Shown here one piece after another: positions 444 through 35,824 of a stretch of DNA of 64,000 bases; the first letter of the stretch is position 1; every line of letters begins with the position of its first letter. Origin of the DNA: Diphasiastrum complanatum (taxonomy: Eukaryota > Streptophyta > Lycopodiopsida > Lycopodiales > Lycopodiaceae). The DNA lies in NCBI GenBank assembly GCA_029204225.1, contig CM055113.1:25583462-25647461 (forward strand), in the 5' to 3' direction. The position numbers and the translations under genes were made by a program. The notes beneath the pieces were generated by a model. It did not search any database, had not been told where the DNA came from, and was given only the letters and a program-made list of their open reading frames with translations.

Positions 444-2510
444 ATGATGGCCAGGACCAAATCCACCACCCGTGCCATCACCACTGTACAGCCATCCCAA
501 TCTCGTGTTCCCTTTGTTACTTGTCGTAGGCATGGCAGGAAGCAGGTCTGGCTAAGGGAGATCAGAAAACTTTAGAGATCAATCGAATTGTTAATCCCTA
601 GAGTTCCTTTTGGCCGATTTGTTTGGAATGTCACTCTGTCACTTGGGCTGAATGTTTGTTTTGTCGTGACATCCATGCAGGCCTTACAGGGTGCTGTAGA
701 AGAGTTTATGTCCCAGTTTTTTGAGGATACTTGTCTTTTAGCAGTGCATGGTAAGGATGTCACCATCATGCCAAAGGATTTCGTCATTCTCAAAAGGCTT
801 CGGGACAGATATTCTGGTTTGCATGTTGATAATGCCAGCACCTCCAGAGACCTGCCTTTGGATAGAACCAACGTGCCTACTACCTCTAAGAGGAAGAGAA
901 AGCAGTCTATCCCCAAGAAGGCTGGATCTCGACGGTCAGCTGCTTCCCTTCCTCCTAGATGTATCCCGGCCAAGAGACCCCATGTCTTTCTGAGCTCCGA
1001 GTCAGATGCTGGAGAATCTGACTCAAATCAAGAATCTTCACTCCTTCATGTTAATCGTCTAGCTCCTCAGCAGGTTTCATCACCAAAAGTGTTGATTACC
1101 CAAGAGGAGCTAAACAAAATAATAGAGAAATTTGTAAATATTGTTTTTGCTCCTGTACATAATCTTTTTGTGAGAATTCCATACGACCCAGCCCAGGTTT
1201 TTTTTTTATTTTGACCATTATAATCAATACGAGTCCTACCTAGCTAACAAAATTGATCTTCTCGGCAATTTTTTTGATTTTTTTCTTCGAGATACACGTA
1301 GAAGCTTTAGATTAGGTCCCAAATTTTGTGCCGAGCTAAAGACCTCAAAGATTTCAGATGCAATAGTAGAGGCCGGAATTTTTTTTTTGCTAAATAGTAT
1401 TAGTTTCGATTCCCATGATACATTTTTTGTACTTAGTCATGGGAGCGGTAAAGGCGAAAGAAGCCAATTTTGAGAAGGCTGTCTATTTTATCGAGTGCAG
1501 TCCTATGGAAAAATTCTATTTGATTCCATATGAAAATAAGTAAGGATTGCTCTTTTGTTTTTGTTGCTTTAATCTGGATTTTTGCATGCTTCATTGCGAA
1601 ATTTTTTCATAAATATGAATTTATCGATATTTGTGTTTGGTTCTTGCAGTCGACATTGGAGCCTTAATATTCTTTTTGTAAAGATAAATAAGGAGGGAGT
1701 ATCAAATTTTTCATGAGTAAAATTAAACTCAGCTACAAATACACATAGAGAATTTGATTCTCTACTTCATGATGTCGTTTGGAAAATACCGACAACGACA
1801 ACTTCAATTGGAGAGATAACCATTAAATCTCTCAAGGTATATTCAATGTATCTCTGATATGCATGTATTCCGTTTTTAATTCAAATGTATCTTCATAGCA
1901 TAAATAAAAAAATTTATCACTATATTACTAATTTTTGTTCTATATATGCAGTGTGTACAGCAACAAGACGCTTTTAGTTGTGCATGGTTCATCCTGTACA
2001 ATACGAAGCTATTTTTTGAATGGTATAATTTACAAACGGATGTAGATATTGAAAAGGTAATATTCTATTCATTTGTAGTTCATTTTATTCTGATTCATAT
2101 TTTATTACTATCATTGTTTGTAATTAGCTGATTCTCGTGTTTTGTGATGACAGTTCACTCTTGAGCCGTATACTCCTGATGATGTATATAGATTTCGGCA
2201 AGAGTTGATCAGAACTTATGCTCAATACGGTGTAGGCGTTGCACCTGCAATCGAGGGCCCTCAAAAGGAAGCTGCTCCTGCCTTAACAGCCTTTCAGGTT
2301 GCTCAAGATGCAGATCTTATTTTATATGATAAAAAAGGAATAAAAGTCCTTACTAATACAGAAGAAGGCAATTTTGTAGCAGATATTCCTCTTGCCTTAA
2401 AAGGCATTGAGGCCCTTCTTGAAACAAAGGAGGGCGAGATTATAGAAGGAGCTGTTGCCTTATTAGTTCCTAATACTAATATAGAGAATATAAAAAAATT
2501 GATTGAATAG
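444..2510 (+). pseudogene. Histone H3-like fold joined to Ulp1-type cysteine protease (copy A)
   Basis: Two start codons in a row (444, 447) open a tail reading ARTKSTTR, like the H3/CENH3 N-terminus. A histone fold follows: WLREIRKL, LLIPRVPFGR, EEFMSQFFEDT, and the loop-2/alpha-3 motif VTIMPKDF. It aligns with H3 without gaps; LIPxxPF and the EEF segment recall CENH3. A K/R-rich linker (KRKRKQ, about 889-906) resembles a nuclear signal. Downstream, GT-AG exons carry a C48 (Ulp1/SENP) protease: NNRHW (His, from 1650), EFDSL (Asp, about 1751), QQDAFSC (Gln and Cys, from 1961). The last exon runs 2154-2510. Probable exon ends are 1836, 2056 and the starts 1952, 2154. Lesions: TAG at 573-575, a 10-T run at 1198-1207 that shifts frame, another frame change near 1447, and TGA near 1714. 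One gene is inferred from frame continuity and the two-copy layout. Confidence 0.72.
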
Positions 2511-2577: not shown

Positions 2578-3582
2578 TTATGGGTTTTTTTTATTGATAT
2601 CACAATAGATTCTTACAATCAGCTTGTGTCCATAGTTTAACAATGGAATGCAATTTTTATATAATGATAAAAAGACATTGGCATGTATTTGCTGATAGTG
2701 AATCTCAATGTTCTTCCATAAGTTGGATTGTTTCGCCAATATCTCTGCATTTGATCTTGAGCTCTCATGTCTTTTACGTACATGCATAAAACTAATACAA
2801 AGTTAGTTAGAATTAGTACAGAGTTTGTATTAGAGAGTTTTGATTGAAACTATTCATAAAAAATCGAGTGTTTACAGTTACTTACGAGTTTACCATTGAA
2901 AATGAATCTAAAGTCTGAAAGTACATCATCTTGTAGGAGCAATAGTTTTCGTCGGATGTAGTTTAGACTCCAATCTTCTTCCAATTCAACACATGTCAAA
3001 ACGACATCATTGTATATAATTTCAATATTTTTTTGTTTTGAATGTCCACTGGCTTCCAAGTCTTGATCGAGTGGCACCCATTTATCTTTATTTTTTTCCA
3101 TCTTTGATAATGGAAGCATAAGCTCAACATTTGTTTTTCAATTTGATAACGGAAGCACATGGAAGACATTTTAATTCTGCATTCTATTTCTCCATCTGAT
3201 CTTTTGTCCCAGCCTTTATCCATAAGTTCAGATAATAAACTATTTGATAAATTTTTGCATACAAACATCGTTGGGATTTTGTGTACATTGACACTTGAAA
3301 AGAAATCCACAAATATATTCAAGGAAATAAACCAACTCAATCTGACTGTTTTTTATCTAGTGCTCATTTTTAATGAATTTTTTACATCATTATATATCTT
3401 GCAACAAAATGATTCTGAAAAACTGTAGCATCTGGTGTAATCCATTCATCACTTTCAAAACTAGGTAATGGAATTGGTACTATTTGTCCAAAATTTCCTT
3501 TTGTATCAGGAATGTACATTGATTCATAAAAAGAGATCCCACTATCAGCGAGATCTTTTGCAGTTCTACCTCGATATTGCAC
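2578..3582 (-). pseudogene. Convergent element gene with possible ubiquitin-like segment (copy A)
   Basis: Reading leftwards from 3582, the first block contains GRTAKDLADS and FYESMYIPDT, conserved in the inverted copy at 31.5 kb. A second block (about 3070-2880) has an alternation like a ubiquitin fold: IEIIYND, CVELEEDWSL, YIRRKLLLL, then FRFIFNGKLV followed directly by a GTAAGT donor. A last exon (about 2785-2578) follows a TTTATGCAG acceptor and is basic and helical (RKRHESSRSNAEIL). The frame between the first two blocks is broken. The gene is tail-to-tail with the H3-Ulp1 gene. The ubiquitin-like reading rests on pattern alone; no diglycine end is seen. Conservation of coding blocks in both copies supports a real gene. 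Confidence 0.45.
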
Positions 3583-21593: not shown

Positions 21594-24500
21594 ATGAGCG
21601 AAGGACCGAGACCCGGAGGTAGTTTGGTCAATCAGCAGCCTGCGATTGGGACCGACGTTCGAGCTTCGACCAGCACATCCAACATTCCTGTTCGAGCACT
21701 GACACCTACTCGAGTGATCGCCCAGCTGGAATTACCGCAGCTGCTAGAAAATGTTTATGGATCTTCAAGCTTATCTCTTGCTCTGGTAAGTTAGTTCTTA
21801 CAAAATTTATTATGTACACTTTTCTGATCTAGCATAATCCGCAGCTTTAAGAAGAATCACATTCAACCACCCCATGTACTGATTATGGTTAGAACCCAAC
21901 AAGACAACATGTGGACCTGCAACTGGATCATAAGTGGTGTGTTGGCCGCAAGGAGTTCCTTTCCTCTCCTTCGGTCAGAAGTTCTATTGCAATAAGCTGC
22001 ACAAAACGAGGACATACTGAGGAGAAAAAAAAACATAAGGGTTTCAGTTGAGCTGCATATTTTACCCTTCCAGTTGAACAGGTGCTACTGCAAACTAGAA
22101 GCAAGAAGCTACTAATTCTTGATCCTATAAGGAAGAGACTTTTTGATCCAATAATGTCTGTCCTGATTGCTGTGAGTTGTAATCTATGTTAAATTCATGT
22201 AAATGCACGTAGCTCGCGTTTTCGCTGTCGTCCCTATTAGGTAAGACTTTCAAACTCCTGCGTCTACTAAGATCTGTGACTCGCACGCAAATATATCATG
22301 GTTTGTTCCTGGAGTAAACAGGCGCGACCTAATCATGACCCTGAGGACACGCAGCTATCGAAGTTGTAAAAGTCGGTACGAATGCAAGAATCATGTAGCA
22401 GAAGATTCATTGTGAATATTTTGACAGTATTCGTTATATTATGCAGCCGAGCGGACAGAGGGAATTCGGCCAGTATTCAGAAGGTGGGCAATTGAGGAAC
22501 AAGGACGACGAATATGAAAGCAAATCTGGTAGTGAAAATATGGATGGAGGTTCGGGTGAAGAGCAGGATCCGGATCAGCCGCCTCGCAAGAAAAGATATC
22601 ACCGTCATACTCCGAGGCAAATTCAGGAAATGGAAATGTAAGCTAAATTTCCAGGAAAAGATCCAATGAGATTGTTGAAAAGACTCGCATTGGAAGAGAT
22701 AAATAACATTTCCGCTTATCACAGAAATCGTGCTTCTCTAGAAATTAGCTGGTTTTTGCATGTCGTTACTTATACTTAATTACGTAGAATCTGACATGAT
22801 GCAAGAGTGACTGATTGTCAGAAGGCATTACAGATCATCTTCAATTTGGTAGATCAGCGAGCCTCATGAATGAGATGGATATGAATTTGTAGGGTGTTCA
22901 AGGAATGCCCTCATCCGGATGACAAGCAAAGACAGGAGCTGAGCAAGGAGCTTGGGCTTGATCCTCGGCAAGTGAAATTTTGGTTCCAGAACAGACGGAC
23001 ACAAATGAAGGTTCGTTGCTGCCTGCTTACAATAGCGTTTCGTGATGAGAAACACAACTCTCTTAAAATAATACCTCATTATCAAAATATGGAGCTCCAT
23101 AGTCCTGATTTTTCACATTTGCAAGTGTGATATTCCAGGCTCAACAAGAGCGTGCAGAAAACTCCATGTTGCGAGCCCAGAATGAGAAGCTTCGTGCAGA
23201 AAATATTGCTATGAGGGAAGCCCTAAAGAATGCTTCATGCCCAAACTGTGGAGGACCTGCCGCACTTGGAGAGATGAGTTTAGAGGAGCAGCAGTTACGC
23301 ATCGAAAATTCTCAGCTTAGAGACGAGGTAAGCAAGAACGTGCTTCAAGATCGGCCATAAAATAGTGCTCAATTTTGCCGCGTAGATCCATTTGCTCATG
23401 TTTCACTAAATTCATAATAATAGGTTCTGGAAGCTGCTTAATCTGCTAATTAACTTCTACACGAATAAATCTTCGATGCAGCTGGATCGTGTGTCTACGT
23501 TGGCAGCAAAACATCTCGGGAGACCTATTTTTCCCTTAACATCCGTAGGACCTCATCATCAGACGCCTAGATCAACGTCTTTGGATCTTGGTGTTGGCGG
23601 AAGCTTCGCTGTGCATACAGTTAGCCCTTCAGTTTCAGATATAACAACCCGACTCGGAGGTCTCAGTGATGAGGAAAAACCTCTCGTTGTGGAATTGGCC
23701 ATGCTAGCGATGGAAGAACTCCTTGCTCTGGCTCAAGCTGCAAAGCCATTGTGGACTCCTGATGCTCACAACGAAATTTTAAACCACGATGAGTATATGC
23801 GGAAGTTTCCTAGAGTTATGGGTGTTCGTCCATTGAGTCTGAAGACCGAAGCAACACGAGAAACAGGTCTAGTCATGATCAATGGAGTTAGTCTGGCCCA
23901 TACTCTCATGGACGCTGTAAGTGACTTCATCATCATATGTTTCAGTTTTCTGGTTCTAGCAAAAGGCATCTACAAGGCTCTATGAATCACCCATGCCCTC
24001 CGTTTGACAGAATGTAGTGCTTGTTTCTGCAATAGGAAATATGGATGAACACATTCTCCTGCATTGTCTCGAGAGCTTCAACGCTGGAAATTCTCTCCAC
24101 AGGCGCTGCGGGAACATGCGATGGTGCATTGCAACTGGTTTGTCTTGATCCTTTTACAGTGTTTCTATTTTTTGCTTCAATCTTTCAGAAAATCCATCTA
24201 TTATGTTCTGAACTTTGAACTCCGAAGGATACCTGAATAGTTGATCGGATCGGTCAATGTTTTCATGGGTGGTTTAAGGTCTACGCAGAACTGCAGGTTC
24301 TATCGCCTCTCGTTCCCACCCGAGAAGTGATGTTCTTAAGGTATTGCAAACAGCATGGAGATGGGGTTTGGGCAATAGTAGATGTTTCATTAGACAGCTT
24401 CCGAGATAAGAACCCTTCCTTGCTAAGATGCCGCAGGCGCCCTTCTGGGTTCATCATCCAGGATATGGCCAACGGTTTCTGTAAGGTATTTCTTCCAGCC

Positions 24501-26368
24501 TCTAGTGCAGCTACAGTCTTATTCACGAAACACCTCCCAAATCAGTACATTACACCACCTTGCTTTAACCATAAATTTCAATATTCTGACACTTGACCTC
24601 CTCAACCTAGCATACTGTCCAAATTGTTTGTAGAGAATAGTTCTGAAGGTGATGAGTGTGTACTTCGAGTTGTGGAAGTCAGCTGTAGATCTAGTGGAAA
24701 TGAATGTCTTCGTGATTGTTACAGGTAACTGTTCTGGAGCACATGGAGTATGACGATCGTCAAGTACATCGCATGTACAAAGCTTTTGTGAACAGTGGAA
24801 TGGCGTTCGGAGCTCAACGGTGGCTGGCAACTTTGCAGCGAGAATGTGAGGGCATGGCTAGCTTGTTAGCCAATAACATATCGCCCAGAGATCTCGGTGG
24901 TATGTATGTACGTTCGTGTGAACCTTTGGTTTGATTCAGCTTGCTGATCAAATCTACCTTTGTTGTTATCAGAGATTAGGCCGCTCCCTACCGTGCCCTT
25001 GAGCCTTTGTTAATTATTTTGAATGATTTAATTGTTACCCTCAGAGATTGAATACAGGTGTGCATCTTCTCAAAATTTTCTGATTTTTTCAACCGATCTC
25101 AGAAATGGAGCTCAGCAGCTAATCTGTTACTCGTACGCTGTTGTTTTCTCTGCAGTGATACCAAGCGCCAATGGACGTCGAAGCATGTTGAAGCTGGCTC
25201 AGCGCATGACGAACAACTTCTGTGCGGGCGTTAGTGCATCCACCATTCACACATGGACCACACTCTCAGGGACTGGAGAGGAGGATGTGAGGGTGATGAC
25301 ACGCAAGAGCGTGGACAATCCAGGTGAGCCTCATGGTATCGTTCTGAGTGCTGCTACTTCATTGTGGTTACCAGTTCTACCACATCGGGTGTTCGATTTT
25401 CTACGAGATGAACGTCTGCGCAGTGAGGTAAGCAGTTTTCTTTCTCTAAATTGCAAATAAATGTTTTGTTTTTTGTACTTGTGCGTCTTAGCTGCTGCGT
25501 CTATGAACATCTTCCCTATTTTTGAATATGAACATGATCATTGGAAAATCAGTCTGAACTGATCTTAAGATAGAGAGAGATGAAGAGCAACTACATTAAG
25601 GTCGACTCAGGTTACTGTTTGTGAGTAAAATCGTCGACGCAGGTTAGTGTTAGTTACTCGATGGTATCAATATTATAGATCAAGCTACATGTTACTGTAC
25701 AAGTTTCGTAGAGAGATTAAGCGTTGATCTTATTGTTTCGGAATTTGATAAAGGAGCTATGACTACTGCAGTGGGATATTCTATCAAACGGTGGCTTGGT
25801 GCAGGAGATGGCTCACATTGCCAAAGGACAAGACCCTGGAAATAGCGTATCACTTCTTCGTGTAAATGTAAGTGGCAGGCTGTGAAGATTTAGGTGATGC
25901 CTCTTACAATTTCGCCATGATGCTTCTTAACATTCTGCTAGTCTGTTGACCTCGATTTTGCTTGTCACCCAGGCCTTAAATTCTTCGCATAGCAATATGC
26001 TGATTTTGCAAGAGAGCTGTACAGACGTGTCTGGTTCGCTCGTTGTGTATGCGCCTGTAGATATCCCAGCAATGAATCTCGTAATGCAAGGTGGTGATCC
26101 TACCTACGTTGCACTATTACCCTCAGGGTTTGCCATTTTCCCGGATGGGCCACCGCATCATGCTGGCAGAAGTGAGAATGATGAAACTGGAGTGGCTCCC
26201 GATAGCTCTACACCTAAGGCGGGTTCTCTACTCACTGTAGCTTTCCAAATTTTGGTTAGTAACACCCCGTCAGCTAAGTTGAGCCTGGAATCAGTGGCAA
26301 CTGTCAATAATCTCATTTCATGCACTGTACAGCGGATCAAAGCTGCCCTACAATGTGAAACTACTTAA
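21594..26368 (+). CDS. HD-ZIP class IV homeodomain-START transcription factor
   Basis: Nuclear DNA-binding regulator; the family controls epidermal (L1) identity and binds L1-box sites. Eleven GT-AG exons: 21594-21785, 22447-22637, 22893-23010, 23139-23327, 23482-23916, 24036-24137, 24279-24485, 24725-24899, 25156-25427, 25772-25867, 25973-26368; all phases fit, giving 790 aa. An acidic tract precedes the homeodomain (about 111-167, [14 protein letters not shown] to [13 protein letters not shown]). Next comes the class IV leucine zipper-loop-zipper (168-230) with the redox-type CPNCGG loop. The START lipid-binding domain runs from about 298 to 525 ([45 protein letters not shown]). The C-terminal SAD region follows, with the family ending [13 protein letters not shown]. 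No frame lesion is seen. The start is the first Met in exon 1; the N-terminal 64 residues are the least certain part. PDF2/ATML1/ANL2-like, but the subgroup is not assigned. Confidence 0.93.
22200..22207 (+). promoter_or_regulatory. L1-box in intron 1
   Basis: TAAATGCA is an exact L1-box (TAAATGYA), the site bound by HD-ZIP IV proteins. It lies in intron 1 of the HD-ZIP IV gene, about 240 bp before exon 2. A handful of chance matches are expected in 64 kb, so function is only a suggestion. Confidence 0.4.
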
Positions 26369-30223: not shown

Positions 30224-30869
30224 CACATGTTCCAAAACAGTAAACACTCTTGATAAATGAAGTTTCTCTTCAACACTCTTATATTTTGTGAAGATTACTT
30301 GTGATTTTTTTCTTTATATCTATTTGAATTTAGTAAAGCTATATTTTATAGCCAGAATATAAAGCAAACCATAAAGTTTGCACCTTGGTGGCCAACTATG
30401 GGTTTGGTAGAACTACAAATTACTATCTAATCTATCAACAGTTCCTAAAGAGAGAAATAAACCCGTGAATCGTGCTCCTCTTTTACTAGTAATTTGGAGA
30501 CTAATCAGAAATGTGGTGAAGCATTAGAGAAACTTAGAGCCCAAAGAGGGCCTTTGAAAAATATGTTTTTTTATTTTTTTTCTTATTTTCGTTGCCATGT
30601 GGACCAATGGAAACCTTGAAATCAGGGTTCGGACTGCCACGTGGCATTTTGGGATCGGATAACATAAATTCAAGTGCCCATTAGAGTTCATAAAGGTCGT
30701 CTGCCTCGGGTTATTGGTTGATAAGGCCTGCCCTTCCAGCTCATCACTGTCCGAAGAGACCCAAAAATATTGAAAATGAATATGACAGATAGTTGAGATG
30801 AGAAATTGAAGTACCATTAATGTATATGCATTGTCAAACAATGGTTAATAGGGTTAACCAGAGTTAATT
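30224..30869. other. Spacer at edge of element copy B
   Basis: No clear gene. A GCCACGTGGC G-box palindrome is at about 30636-30645. The edge of element copy B may lie here, but no terminal repeat is recognised. Confidence 0.4.
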
Positions 30870-32520
30870 CGTGGCGCCAAATAGATCAGTGTTTCAAATT
30901 TACCCCAACATATTTTCTCATATTCATGGCTTTTTGTCTACGCAAATTTTCAGATTTATAGTTCAGTGTTTCAGATTTTTACATGCACATTACGAATGGT
31001 GCCATCAAGGAAGCCGTGCTCCTCAATCGACTATGTGCTTCTATTCAACGAGAAAGATGATAATGGATTATGGGTGCCAAGAAAATATTCAAAAAAATCT
31101 TGGGTTTTGATACATCCATCGCCAAGAGGAGCATTTTGAAAAAGCAAAAGGTCAAAACTATCATTTCGATCTTATTGGAAGGCCAGAATATTGGATTTCA
31201 GAACATCATCAAGAGGAAAATCTATTTCTAAAATTCTAGTCCAACATGTATATATGCATTCAGAGATAAATGTGCAAGGATTCAATCGTCAGGATCACAC
31301 AAAAAAAAACAACTATGAGTATTGATATTTTTGATACTTAGATTTTTGTCATTCATAAATATCCAATATTAAACTTGCCAATCTGATCATTTTTCTCTTG
31401 CAGATTTATATCCATCCAACATAAATGAATGGGAGCCAAGTGGATTTTTAGCAGGTGTGTTAGATATTACTCACACTGATATTGGACAGCTGCAATATCA
31501 AGGTAGAACTGCAAAAGATCTAGCTAATAGTAAAATCTTTTTTTATGAATCAATGTACATTCCTGATACAAAAGAAAATTTTGGACAAATAGTATCAATT
31601 CCATTATCTAGTTTTGAAAGTGATGAATAATATATAATGATGTAAAAAATTCATTAAAAATGAGCACGAGATCAAAAATAGTCACATTGAGTTGGTATAT
31701 TTCCTTGAATATATTTGTGGATTTCTTTTTAAGTGTCAATGCACACAAAATCCCAACGATGTTTGTATGAAAAAATTTATCAGATAGTCTATTATCTGAA
31801 CTCATGGATGAAGGCTGAGACAAAAGATCAGATGGAAAAATAGAATGTAGAATTAAAATGTCTTCCATGTGCTTCCGTTATCAAATTGAAAAACAAATGT
31901 TGAGCTTATGCTTTCATTATCAAAGATGAAAAATAAATAAAGGTAAATGGGTGCCACTCGATCAAGACTTGGAAGCTAGTGGACATTCAAAATAAAAACT
32001 TATTGAAATTATATACAATGATGCCATTTTGATGTGTGTTGAGGTGGAAGAAGATCGGAGTCTAAATTACATAAGGTGGGAACTATTGCTCCTACAAGAT
32101 GAGATGTACTTTCAAACTTCAGATTTATTTTCAATGGTAAACTCGTAAGTAACTGTAAACACTCGATCTTTTATGAATAGTTTCAATCAAAACATTCTAA
32201 TACAATCTCTGTACTAATTGTAACTCGCTTTGTATTAGTTTTATGCAGGTACGTAAAACACATGAGCTCGAGATCAAATACAGAGATATTGGCAAAACAA
32301 TCCAACTTATAGAAGAACATTGAGATTCACTATTAGCATATACATGCCAATCATCATGTCTTTTTATCAATATAGAAAATTGCATTCCAGTATTACACTA
32401 TGGACACAAACTGATTGTAAGAATCTATATTGATATCAATAAAAAAAACCCATAAACGGGTTGTTTACATGCAAAATGATTGTATCTTTTTTTTTTTATG
32501 TATCTCTATTTACAAATAGA
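30870..32520 (+). pseudogene. Convergent element gene with possible ubiquitin-like segment (copy B)
   Basis: Inverted counterpart of 2578-3582 and longer at its 5' side. After a CTCTTGCAG acceptor (about 31412) it reads EWEPSGFLAGVLDITHTDIG, then QGRTAKDLANSKIFFYES. The downstream block IEIIYNDAILMCVEVEED and LNYIRWELLLLQDE matches copy A, but the FRFIFNG part is lost to a small deletion near 32100. An acceptor at about 32247 leads to the basic last exon, also broken. The earlier region (30.87-31.41 kb) has open pieces such as SILKKQKVKTIISILLEG that could be further exons. Function unknown; ubiquitin-like nature is a pattern-based guess. Confidence 0.45.
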
Positions 32521-34608
32521 TCTCTATTCAGTCAATTTTTCTATATTTTCTTTATCAGTATTAGAAACTGATAAGGGAACAGCTCCTTCTATAATCCCAT
32601 CTTCCTCTGTTTCGGGAAAGGCCTCAATGCCTTTTAAGACAAGATTACTCTCTGTTATAATATCGTCTTCCTCTGTATTAGGAAGGACTTCAATTTCTTT
32701 TTTGTCATATATTATAAGATCTACATCCTGAGCAACCTTAAGGCTGTTAAGACAAGAGCAGCTTGTTTTTGAGGGCCCTCGATCTCAGGTGCAACACTTA
32801 CACCGTTCTGAGCATAGTTTTTCATCAACTCTTGCTGAAATCTATATACATCGTCAGGAGTATACGGCTCAAGAGTGAACTGTCATCACAAAACACGAGA
32901 AGTAGTTATTATGGTGGCATACATTAGTAATTGGTGTCCGACAAAAGCCTTGAAGATTTTGACTCCTTATGAAGTTTGGTATCATTTGGTATCACCATCT
33001 AATGTTGAAGAGGAGGGACTACCATCATCCTCTAATGGATAGCCCACTGGTTCTTCAAGCGAACAGCCCATAATTCATCAAGAGGAGCAGATTTATGAAG
33101 AGGAACGACTTGTTGAAAACTTTGGATAGCATAGTCCAATTTTAGAGCACTTTGGACAGCAAAGTGTTGACAGTTCAGATCACTTTGGACAGCAAAGCGT
33201 TGATCAAAGTAAGGCTGTTGGACAGCCTAAACCAGTCCCTAAATGGCTGTTGCAGACTTTGCAGGACAGCAAAGTGAACCGCTTCTATGAAGGGAAGACT
33301 CGTGTCTCATCTAAATCAGTAGAATTTGCTGATTTTTTTTATTTTGCTCTTACATCTATTGAGGATAGTGCAATAGAACCTGTTTTTTATGAGCAGGCCA
33401 GAGGAGTAAAATGTTGGGAGGACGCGATAAAAGAGGAGTATGACTCACTCATAAAGAACCAAACATGGGTTTTTGTTGATCTTCCACATGGAAAGAAAGC
33501 AATTGGCTGTAATCAAGTACAAGTTCGATGGTACTGTTGTAAGGTGCAAGGCAAGACTTGTTGCCAAAGGTCATGCGCAAAAGGAGGACATTGATTATGA
33601 GGAAACTTTTGCACCTACCGCACGAATAACTACCGTACGGATAGTCACTACTTTGGCTGCCCATCATGGTTGGCGTATGCACCAACTTGACATAAAGACA
33701 ACCTTCCTCAATGGTGATCTTAATGAGGAAGTTTACCTTCAGCAACCTGCTGGTTTTTTGGTTGCAGGTCAAGAAGACAAAGTGTGTCTTCTCAAGAAGG
33801 CTCTCTATGGACTAAAACAAGCCCCAAGGATGTGGTATCAAAAGATACACACATACTTTTGTGATCGTGGGTTTTCTAGTAGTCATAGTGAATCTACGCT
33901 TTATGTCATGCATACATCTCTTGGGTAATCAACATTTTTGGTGACGAAACCTGCTGAGGAGCTGGACAAATAACAGGAGGAGGAAGGGGTGATGATTCTT
34001 GATCTGAATCAGATTCTCCAGCATCTGACTCAGAGCTCAGGACGATCCGAGGTCTCTTGGTTGGGATAACTCCAGGAGGAAGGGAAGCAGTTGGCCTTCG
34101 AGATCCAGTCTTCTTGGGGACAAGCTGCTTCCTCTTCCTCCTAGAGGTAGTCGGCAAGTTGGTTCTATCCAGAGGCAGGTCTCTGGAGGTGTTGGCATTA
34201 TCAACATGGAGAGCATAAAAATGGTCCCGAAGTCTTCTAAGAATGATGAAATCTTTTGGCATGATGGTGACACACTTACCATGCACTACCAAAAGATAGG
34301 TATCCTCAAAAAAACTGGGACAAAAAATCTTCTGCAGTACCCTGTAAGTCCTGCATGGCCGTCATGGCAAAATGAACATCTAGCCCAAGTGACAGAGTGA
34401 CATTCCTTACAGATCGGCTGAAAGGAGCTCTAGGGATCAACAGTTCAGTTAATCTCTGGAGTTTTCTAGTCTCCCTCATCCAGACCTGCTTCCTACCACG
34501 TCTACGGCCAATATCAGGGAGAACACGGGCATGGGATGGTTGTACAGTGGTTATGGCACAGTGGTTATGGTTGTATAGTGGTTATGGTGATTTGGTCCTG
34601 GCCATCAT
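32521..34608 (-). pseudogene. Histone H3-like fold joined to Ulp1 protease (copy B)
   Basis: Reading leftwards from twin ATGs at 34608 and 34605. The tail starts ARTKS and soon hits TAA within a local expansion of a CATAACCACTGTA-type repeat. The fold reads QVWMRETRKLQRLTELLIP, APFSRSVRNV, AEDFLSQFF, then VTIMPKDFIILRRLRD after a frameshift in a 7-A run (34308-34314; copy A has six bases there). The KRKRKQ linker and SSESDAGESDSDQESS acidic tract are conserved. At about 33926 the gene is interrupted: about 1.0 kb of copia pol takes the place of the protease His/Asp/Cys exons. It resumes at about 32888 with the last exon, FTLEPYTPDDVYRF, which later shifts frame. Copy B has CAG where copy A has TAG. 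Confidence 0.7.
32905..33925 (+). pseudogene. Copia integrase/RT fragment inside copy B
   Basis: Opposite strand to its host gene. Begins with the integrase end YISNWCPTKALKILTPYEVW, skips the usual GY-box region, then runs through CWEDAIKEEYDSLIKNQTW, a frame change near 33515, CKARLVAKGHAQ, HQLDIKTTFLNGDLNEEVYL and KKALYGLKQAPRMW. It ends at STLYVMHTS, before YVDD. No LTRs are present. The junctions lie in an element intron and in the linker exon, so it came with a deletion, not as a clean insertion. Confidence 0.8.
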
Positions 34609-34676
34609 TCTAAAAAAAAAAAAATTTAAAAAAAAAAGTCTGAACAAACGCGCATAGAGTGAAAACAAACAAATTT

Positions 34677-35824
34677 GCGATAAGAGGGCGCTTGAGATCG
34701 ATTGGGAAGCTATCTCTTCCACTTATGAAGCTGCTTTTTCTAGTGGTACAAAGTCTGAAAAGTCAAAGATTGTAGATATAGATACTTTTTTTTTATATGA
34801 GCGTTAACTTAGATGATTGTTTAGATTTTGATCCTGCTCGAAATAGGGCATCGTTTATAGGCCCTAAAACATCCACTACCCTTTCTCCTTCTGATAAATC
34901 TTTCATCACTTTGTCTACTTATATTATAGATAATAATTTTTTTTTGACAATATTCGATATATCAGATCTTTTCTATTTCACTGAAGCTGAGATTCTTTAC
35001 ATTTTGAGCAAAGAGCTTGATGAATTTTCGGATATAATTGATTTTGATGCTGATGATCTTCTCCCTTGTGTTGACAATGTACATAATGATAAGTTTTATT
35101 CAGGAAAAGATTGCTTGAAAATGGTTGTGGAGAAAATGCGCAACGAAGTAGATGATCTACCTTCTGAGGAGGAATTTCTCAGAATCCAAAGTCAACTTGG
35201 TTTTCCACAACCAATTGTCTATTCACCAACAATATTGACATCAAAAGGTGGATATAATATTGATGGAGAGACAGTAATCAGGGAAGACAAAGGTAAATGC
35301 GTAAGTTTTTGTATCTTATCATGTACTAGTAGATTTGTTATGTCAGATTATATACTAGAGCTTACTTTGTTTTTTATCATTTTAGGAAACAATTTTCCTT
35401 GATGATTTCGTAATTCGTCGAGGGGGGCAGAGATCTTCTATTGGAGAATGTTCAAGAGATCATGCACTTGGGGCACTATCTGAAGTTCTTCAAGAATAAT
35501 GAGATAAGTGTTTCCCATTCAAAGTTTCATCAACATGGTGAGACTATGATTATGGCAATCAAGGCACTGTCTCATTTTCTTGGAGGACATAATTTCAATA
35601 AGGTGCATAAAATAATTTTTGTAAAGAAAACCATTGCGGTTGAAATTTTTAGCATATGGACAGTGAATTCCATGCTCAAATCATCTCATTTTGCATTATA
35701 TACTGCTTACGTCGATCTGAGTAAGCATGAAAACTATGAGCTGTTGGATCCATACGAAAGAAGAAAATTGTTGCATGATTCTAAGTTGCAACTTTCATTG
35801 GAGAAAGTATCGGAAGCAGAGTAG
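34677..35824 (+). pseudogene. Unknown element gene, divergent from H3-Ulp1
   Basis: Starts head to head with copy B's H3-Ulp1 gene. The first frame reads ALEIDWEAISSTYEAAFSSG, shifts in an 8-9 T run near 34788, and continues 34797-35302 as an acidic, Ser/Asp-rich protein (DFSDIIDFDADDLLPC is typical in character; DGETVIREDKGKC at the end). A GTAAGT donor at about 35300 and a TTTTAG acceptor at about 35385 lead to ETIFLDDFVIRRGGQRSS. A further frame (35441-35824) contains GETMIMAIKALSHFLGGHN and LDPYERRKLLHDS. I recognise no family. Intron signals and gene-like composition argue that it is real, although frame-broken. Confidence 0.4.

Follow-up and report, generated by a model that had tools for sequence, protein, structure and literature searches.

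Introduction

Can a histone of the H3 type and a SUMO protease-like domain belong to one protein, and what kind of sequence would carry such a gene? The question is raised by positions 444-2510 of the window, the 64,000-nucleotide stretch of the clubmoss Diphasiastrum complanatum genome that was analysed here, which a first-pass annotation had read as an H3-like fold joined to a Ulp1/SENP-type (C48) protease. We found a broken gene that fuses an H3-type histone fold, through a basic linker, to a C48/SENP-like domain, and this fusion recurs in the same order across four diverged families of mobile element. On balance we lean towards reading the locus as the decayed remnant of a DNA transposon with several genes (approximately 8 kb in the copy called G below), whose fusion of a CENH3-like H3 with a C48 domain would act on chromatin.

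Results

Two broken copies in the window

The features of the two window copies, A and B, are collected in Table 1. The motifs ARTKS, LLIPRVPF and VTIMPKDF of copy A all lie in the frame that starts at ATG 444, and the Pfam Histone model matched this copy, with one stop read through, at 66.9 bits (E 2.6e-18). An uninterrupted copy from elsewhere in the genome, L019, aligned gap-free with PDB H3 chains over 92 residues (2.7e-19), and the H3-type tail and fold of the first annotation were thus borne out. The C48 part of copy A alone reached 14.0 bits (E 0.045) against a Pfam cut-off of 20.7, and its exons 1650-1836, 1952-2056 and 2154-2510 supply HW, Q and SCAWF. Copy A carries two stop codons (TAG 573-575 and TGA 1714-1716) and frameshifts near 1196-1207 and at about 1430-1445. 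Copy B is a second broken copy, on the minus strand (34639-30522). Both copies are dead, and neither is able to encode the whole protein.

Table 1. Coordinates of the features of copies A and B within the window
Copy	Feature	Position	Strand	Basis or remark
A	H3-like N-terminal tail (MMARTKSTTRAITT...)	444-539	+	Translation; same stretch open in other copies
A	Histone fold of H3/CENH3-like type, interrupted by TAG 573-575	540-806	+	Pfam Histone 2.6e-18; H3/CENH3 alignment
A	Basic linker (conserved motif RKRKQ-x-x-PK), exon common to H3	807-1196	+	Translation, family comparison
A	N-terminal half of C48-like domain, exon common to H3, two frameshifts	1197-1540	+	
A	C48 exon carrying HW, and Asn in place of Asp; stop TGA 1714-1716	1650-1836	+	
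A	C48 exon carrying Gln and Cys (CVQQQDAFSCAWF)	1952-2056	+	
A	Last exon, FTLEPYTPDD... to stop	2154-2510	+	Segment recurs in P0002
A	Portion of opposite-strand 3' gene	2630-3581	-	89-93% identity to copy B; nothing above the Pfam cut-off
B	H3-like fold and linker	33918-34639	-	83.5% identical to copy A; CAG for the TAG of A; own frameshift near 34306
B	Last exon	32544-32910	-	Two catalytic C48 exons absent, other sequence between
B	Opposite-strand 3' gene region, reaching terminal inverted repeat	30522-32500	+	
B	Terminal inverted repeat, starts CATTAGAGAAAC	30522-30554	+	
B	Divergent gene N, frames MSVNLDDCLDFDPARNRA...	34782-35821	+	Matched in other copies

Two possible introns of copy A were considered and rejected. 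The 135-bp segment 547-681, inside the H3 part, looks like an intron but is read through in copy B and others; it is coding, and specifies H3 from helix 1 through loop 1 into helix 2. The segment 1197-1436 is likewise coding in other copies. The H3 part shares a single exon with the N-terminal half of C48 in the family I copies compared (family I being that of the window copies).

Some further observations concern the surroundings and relatives of these copies. At the place of the C48 exons of A, copy B has a Copia-like reverse transcriptase frame, recognised by eye (32980-33900), and between the two copies lie plus-strand frames (23410-26365) that resemble a host HD-ZIP/START-type gene. Locus L006 (C22:7045622-7046388), 18 Mb off on contig C22, which also holds the window, is 99% identical to copy A over the query and shares its TAG, which may reflect either a duplication or a late transposition of the already broken copy. 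The last exon of the element also stands at the end of a predicted protein of D. complanatum (P0002, O6H91_Y440400), where it is joined to unrelated sequence; P0002 matches the genome at 97% over 77 residues.

Family I and the gene structure

A DNA search of the 1.74-Gb genome with the H3 part (430-1196) gave 1844 candidates, 40 of which were scored; all 40 were 87-100% identical to the query, 38 covered nearly its whole length, and copy A was among them. The catalytic Cys exon was present in 24 of the 30 scored copies that were fetched for comparison. Counted in the copies in which the site is present, the first intron had a GT donor in 24/28 and an AG acceptor in 27/27, the second intron kept donor and acceptor in 24/24 each, and the third kept them in 19/24 and 22/24. 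An unbroken frame from the ATG into the C48 half was found in five of the 30 copies (L017, L019, L023, L028 and L029), the last four of which make up two near-identical pairs. The L019/L023 pair extends over 17.8 kb at 99.5% identity and may be a haplotig or a duplication, so that it is uninformative on the ends of the element. In L013, L017, L028, L029 and L033, part of the sequence upstream of H3 occurs as a tandem repeat.

The fusion recurs in diverged families

A search with a plant CENH3 fold gave 5531 candidates, of which 150 were scored: 13 at 59% identity, two of which were read and proved to be canonical H3, and 137 at 47-56%. Eleven of the 137, selected for long frames or score, were fetched and fell into families II (four), III (one), IV (three) and V (three). 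The H3 DNA of families II-V had no blastn match to copy A; families II and III matched it in the 3' region only, at 70-82%. Pfam Histone E-values were 1.8e-25 for family II, 1.4e-24 for III and 2.5e-29 for V. Families I-IV have the H3 fold, a linker with a conserved RKQ..P motif and the N-terminal half of C48 within one exon and in one frame, the unbroken frames of families II-IV coming from loci selected for long frames. Together with the five of 30 unbroken family I copies, they uphold the proposed joining of a histone to a C48-type domain, and place it in mobile elements. In family V (L046, L051 and L055 with L056-L059) a long Pro-rich protein ends in the H3-like fold; L055 has an ARTKQTAR start in frame with the fold, one stop codon away. 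No C48 domain was recognised by eye in this family among frames of at least 90 aa in 12.9 kb at two loci.

Loci were also selected by the C48 region alone. For family II, 40 of 1838 candidates were scored and 20 checked: the fold or part of it stood at the expected distance upstream, with two-thirds of the fold or more in 18/20, while L070 had the fold end only and L073 had none. For family III, 40 of 453 were scored and 20 checked, and an H3 fold or part of it was found upstream in 16/20 (only 20 residues in L093) and none in four. Histone and protease travel together. Neither outcome named at first as refuting, histone and protease always on separate transcripts or the lack of a significant histone HMM match, was seen. 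Seventeen of the family II loci could be aligned over nearly the whole fold; six were stop-free, three of these also gap-free, and 11 had a stop within the fold. An FF*DS stop recurs in the fold of many C48-picked family II copies (L060-L079) and may mark either an amplified broken sub-lineage or a frequently mutating site.

It could be argued that the fusion is an illusion of annotation and that histone and protease are separate adjoining genes, as the frame of copy A is broken between the domains and the catalytic residues lie on later exons. However, the uninterrupted frames from H3 through the linker into the C48 N-terminal half in families I-IV and the conserved splice sites make this highly improbable. 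An ordinary H3 pseudogene was ruled out by the diverged fold, the C48 exons and families II-IV.

The C48 domain and its catalytic residues

With one locus per family, the Pfam C48 model gave 22.7, 28.1 and 24.5 bits for families II, III and IV, all over the cut-off, but 16.8 bits for family I of the window, under 20.7. A joint C48 profile matched SENP2 (0.0017) and SENP8 (0.0035). When the Pfam C48 model was run against the whole genome, scoring 150 of 520 candidates exon by exon, it matched at three places, none of them an element copy; this silence indicates that the model misses single exons because they are too short or have diverged too far. No exchange of the catalytic His, Gln or Cys occurs in the alignment of the four families. 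The first-pass annotation had listed HW, D, Q and C; HW, Q and C were found, whereas the position of the Asp is an Asn (LNS/MN) in all of families I-IV. The D of FDSL is missing in family IV. Given the Asn at the catalytic Asp, SUMO cleavage by the C48 part is only putative.

Ends, transposase and gene set of the element

In family I, imperfect terminal inverted repeats starting CATTA(G/A) bound both ends of copy G, which comprises L010 and its flanks (approximately 8.0 kb), and of copy F, which comprises L021 and its flanks (approximately 6.7 kb); copies B and E1, also of family I, have the repeat at one end. The family I element contains a transposase-like gene, gene N on the other strand, the H3-C48 gene and the opposite-strand 3' gene. 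By motif, a DDE-like transposase gene was recognised in families I and V (35% identical to each other) and a piece of it in II, with the layout D, D, C(2)C, H(4)H, its last acidic residue not being located. Pfam found nothing but H3 and C48 over the cut-off on the element pieces searched, and no hAT model matched among the element frames given. No target duplication was found in copies F or G. AlphaFold models of the H3-C48 and transposase frames had pLDDT values of 37 and 38 and were unusable. A host gene family was ruled out by copy number, inverted repeats and the adjoining transposase gene, and a virus or provirus by Pfam searches of element pieces, which matched no viral model.

The interior of copy F (L021, flanks L039/L041) is inverted relative to both ends when compared with G (L010, flanks L040/L042), an inversion that swaps the starts of two genes. 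Compared with its empty site in a tandem repeat, copy F again had no target duplication.

Origin of the histone fold

In the 22- and 29-row trees, whose CENH3 rows were typed in rather than fetched and include no lycophyte CENH3, that of the host among them, families I-IV formed one clade (support 95/92 and 95/90) with family V next to it (90/87 and 86/87), and the element folds grouped with plant CENH3 (80/89 and 68/91) or with all CENH3 rows (90/91). Placing families I-IV with H3 was rejected (p 0.027), placing I-V with H3 gave p 0.050, and placing I-IV with plant CENH3, V excluded, gave p 0.086. CENH3-like marks were LLIP-x-A-x-F and KDF/KDM, RW in families III and IV, and a longer loop 1 in II and IV. 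The H3 residues that we take to be H113, R116 and D123 are kept in most of the aligned copies. Tree and marks suggest, with moderate confidence, that the element fold groups with CENH3 rather than with H3.

A fold of this kind may direct insertion to CENH3 chromatin rather than counteract silencing, and PMC13317346 cites retrotransposons that insert via CENH3 chromatin. The 40 family I matches, however, are spread over many contigs, and we regard centromere targeting as an unlikely role of the histone part.

Selection on the fusion

Among 24 family I copies picked by DNA, pN/pS of the fold was about 0.63 (CI 0.44-0.96), or 0.56 without CpG sites, and that of the tail 0.96; the linker and the C48 half of this family gave no sign of constraint (1.39 and 1.16). 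The fold value was 0.30 in 13 C48-picked family III copies and 0.65 in 17 C48-picked family II copies, L070, L073 and L061 being left out (0.79 when L070 and L073 were included). A family II value of 0.13 was set aside because those copies had been ranked by protein similarity to CENH3. Between families III and IV the values were 0.25 for the fold, 0.49 for the C48 half and 0.61 for the linker, in selected loci with synonymous sites near saturation. Three of the copy alignments, those of the C48-picked family II and III copies among them, omit insertions, so that insertion frameshifts are not visible in them. Judged from these substitution patterns, the fold was under constraint in active lineages, and the copies of today are mostly decaying.

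The near-neutral decay of most copies would also fit passive cargo, a captured histone gene and a C48 domain that hitch-hike in a fused protein without a role, all the more as gene capture is frequent in plant and fungal transposons (PMC13317346, PMC3538342). We think this improbable, as the order is kept in four families whose H3 DNA is no longer alignable, and the fold is constrained in loci picked without H3 (family III) or by DNA (family I).

A stronger alternative, which we hold to be possible, is that the protease is inactive and serves as an arm binding SUMO-type modifiers, or that the histone part is a decoy for H4 or its chaperones. The Asn in all four families and the unconstrained C48 half of family I speak for an inactive protease; the invariant His, Gln and Cys speak against it, and some cysteine proteases, papain among them, function with Asn at this position.

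Discussion

Our reading builds on the fused architecture, its repetition in four families, the inverted repeats and DDE-like transposase of family I and the constraint on the fold, all of which are established by the analysis. A CENH3-like histone H3 gene, of the centromere type, would have been acquired by a transposon lineage and fused, in its families I-IV, to a Ulp1/SENP-like domain of clan CE. The histone part may then pair with H4 and be loaded into chromatin by H3 or CENH3 chaperones, and the loaded histone could anchor the C-terminal domain on nucleosomes. There the domain might strip SUMO-type modifiers from silencing or centromere proteins, or bind such modifiers if it is inactive, and this action would aid expression or insertion of the element. 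More tentatively, the transposon may carry its own centromere-type histone together with a deSUMOylating enzyme, and thereby edit the chromatin of its own copies, evading silencing or choosing the site of insertion.

According to reports on human cells, centromere chromatin is maintained by SENP6 (PMC6726658, PMC6981222), which makes this chromatin a plausible target for a CENH3-like histone with a SENP-like tail, and the fusion bears on SUMO control of centromere chromatin. Transposon genes that act on silencing have been described, namely a Vandal-type regulator and SET and TET/JBP genes (PMC12730594). Retained across diverged families, a histone fold physically joined to a SUMO-protease-like domain would be another tool acting on silencing, one anchored on nucleosomes. 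The elements also supply a plant genome with a large stock of CENH3-like histone genes, a point relevant to the rapid evolution of CENH3.

Comparison with known systems

The protein database gave four matches to the fused query, three animal proteins that contain H3 and one D. complanatum protein matched in the last exon only, and no match to H3 plus linker. The H3-fold query gave 7254 protein matches, with a histone domain in all 120 among the matches listed. We found no report of a histone-Ulp1 fusion or of a transposon-encoded CENH3 in the open-access literature.

Fungal hAT elements with H3-like genes come close. The H3L of Pyrenophora tritici-repentis is described as neither plain H3 nor plain CenH3 (PMC3538342), and H3 captured by hAT elements is reported from Pseudocercospora and relatives, being RIP-damaged in Pseudocercospora (PMC6710886). 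Like the clubmoss element, these are multi-copy DNA transposons with inverted repeats and an H3-like gene; in contrast, fungal H3L comes with a hAT transposase, and its description mentions no fused protease. Fragments of histone genes are also contained in a Culex Helentron (PMC4067079).

Ulp1 genes are carried by plant Mutator-like elements (Kaonashi, PMC13317346), which share with the clubmoss element a Ulp1/C48-type domain on a plant DNA transposon. Kaonashi elements belong to another transposase group and are presented without a histone part, the main text of that paper being free of the word 'histone'. A placement of the clubmoss element among CACTA or Mutator elements is only tentative. 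The clubmoss layout agrees with the motif D, D, C(2)C, H(3-4)H of the CMCT group (CACTA/EnSpm-Mirage-Chapaev-Transib) given in PMC12730594, but its transposase has no Pfam match, its ends are CATTAG instead of the CAC of EnSpm, and copies F and G are without target duplication.

The histone part resembles CENH3/CENP-A in LLIP-x-A-x-F, KDF/KDM, features of loop 1 and, with moderate support, position in the tree, and differs in being transposon-encoded and fused to C48. The C-terminal part resembles the SENP/Ulp1 SUMO proteases of clan CE in the fold region, HW, Gln, Cys and the profile matches to SENP2 and SENP8, and is set apart from them by the Asn in place of Asp and by the histone at its N terminus.
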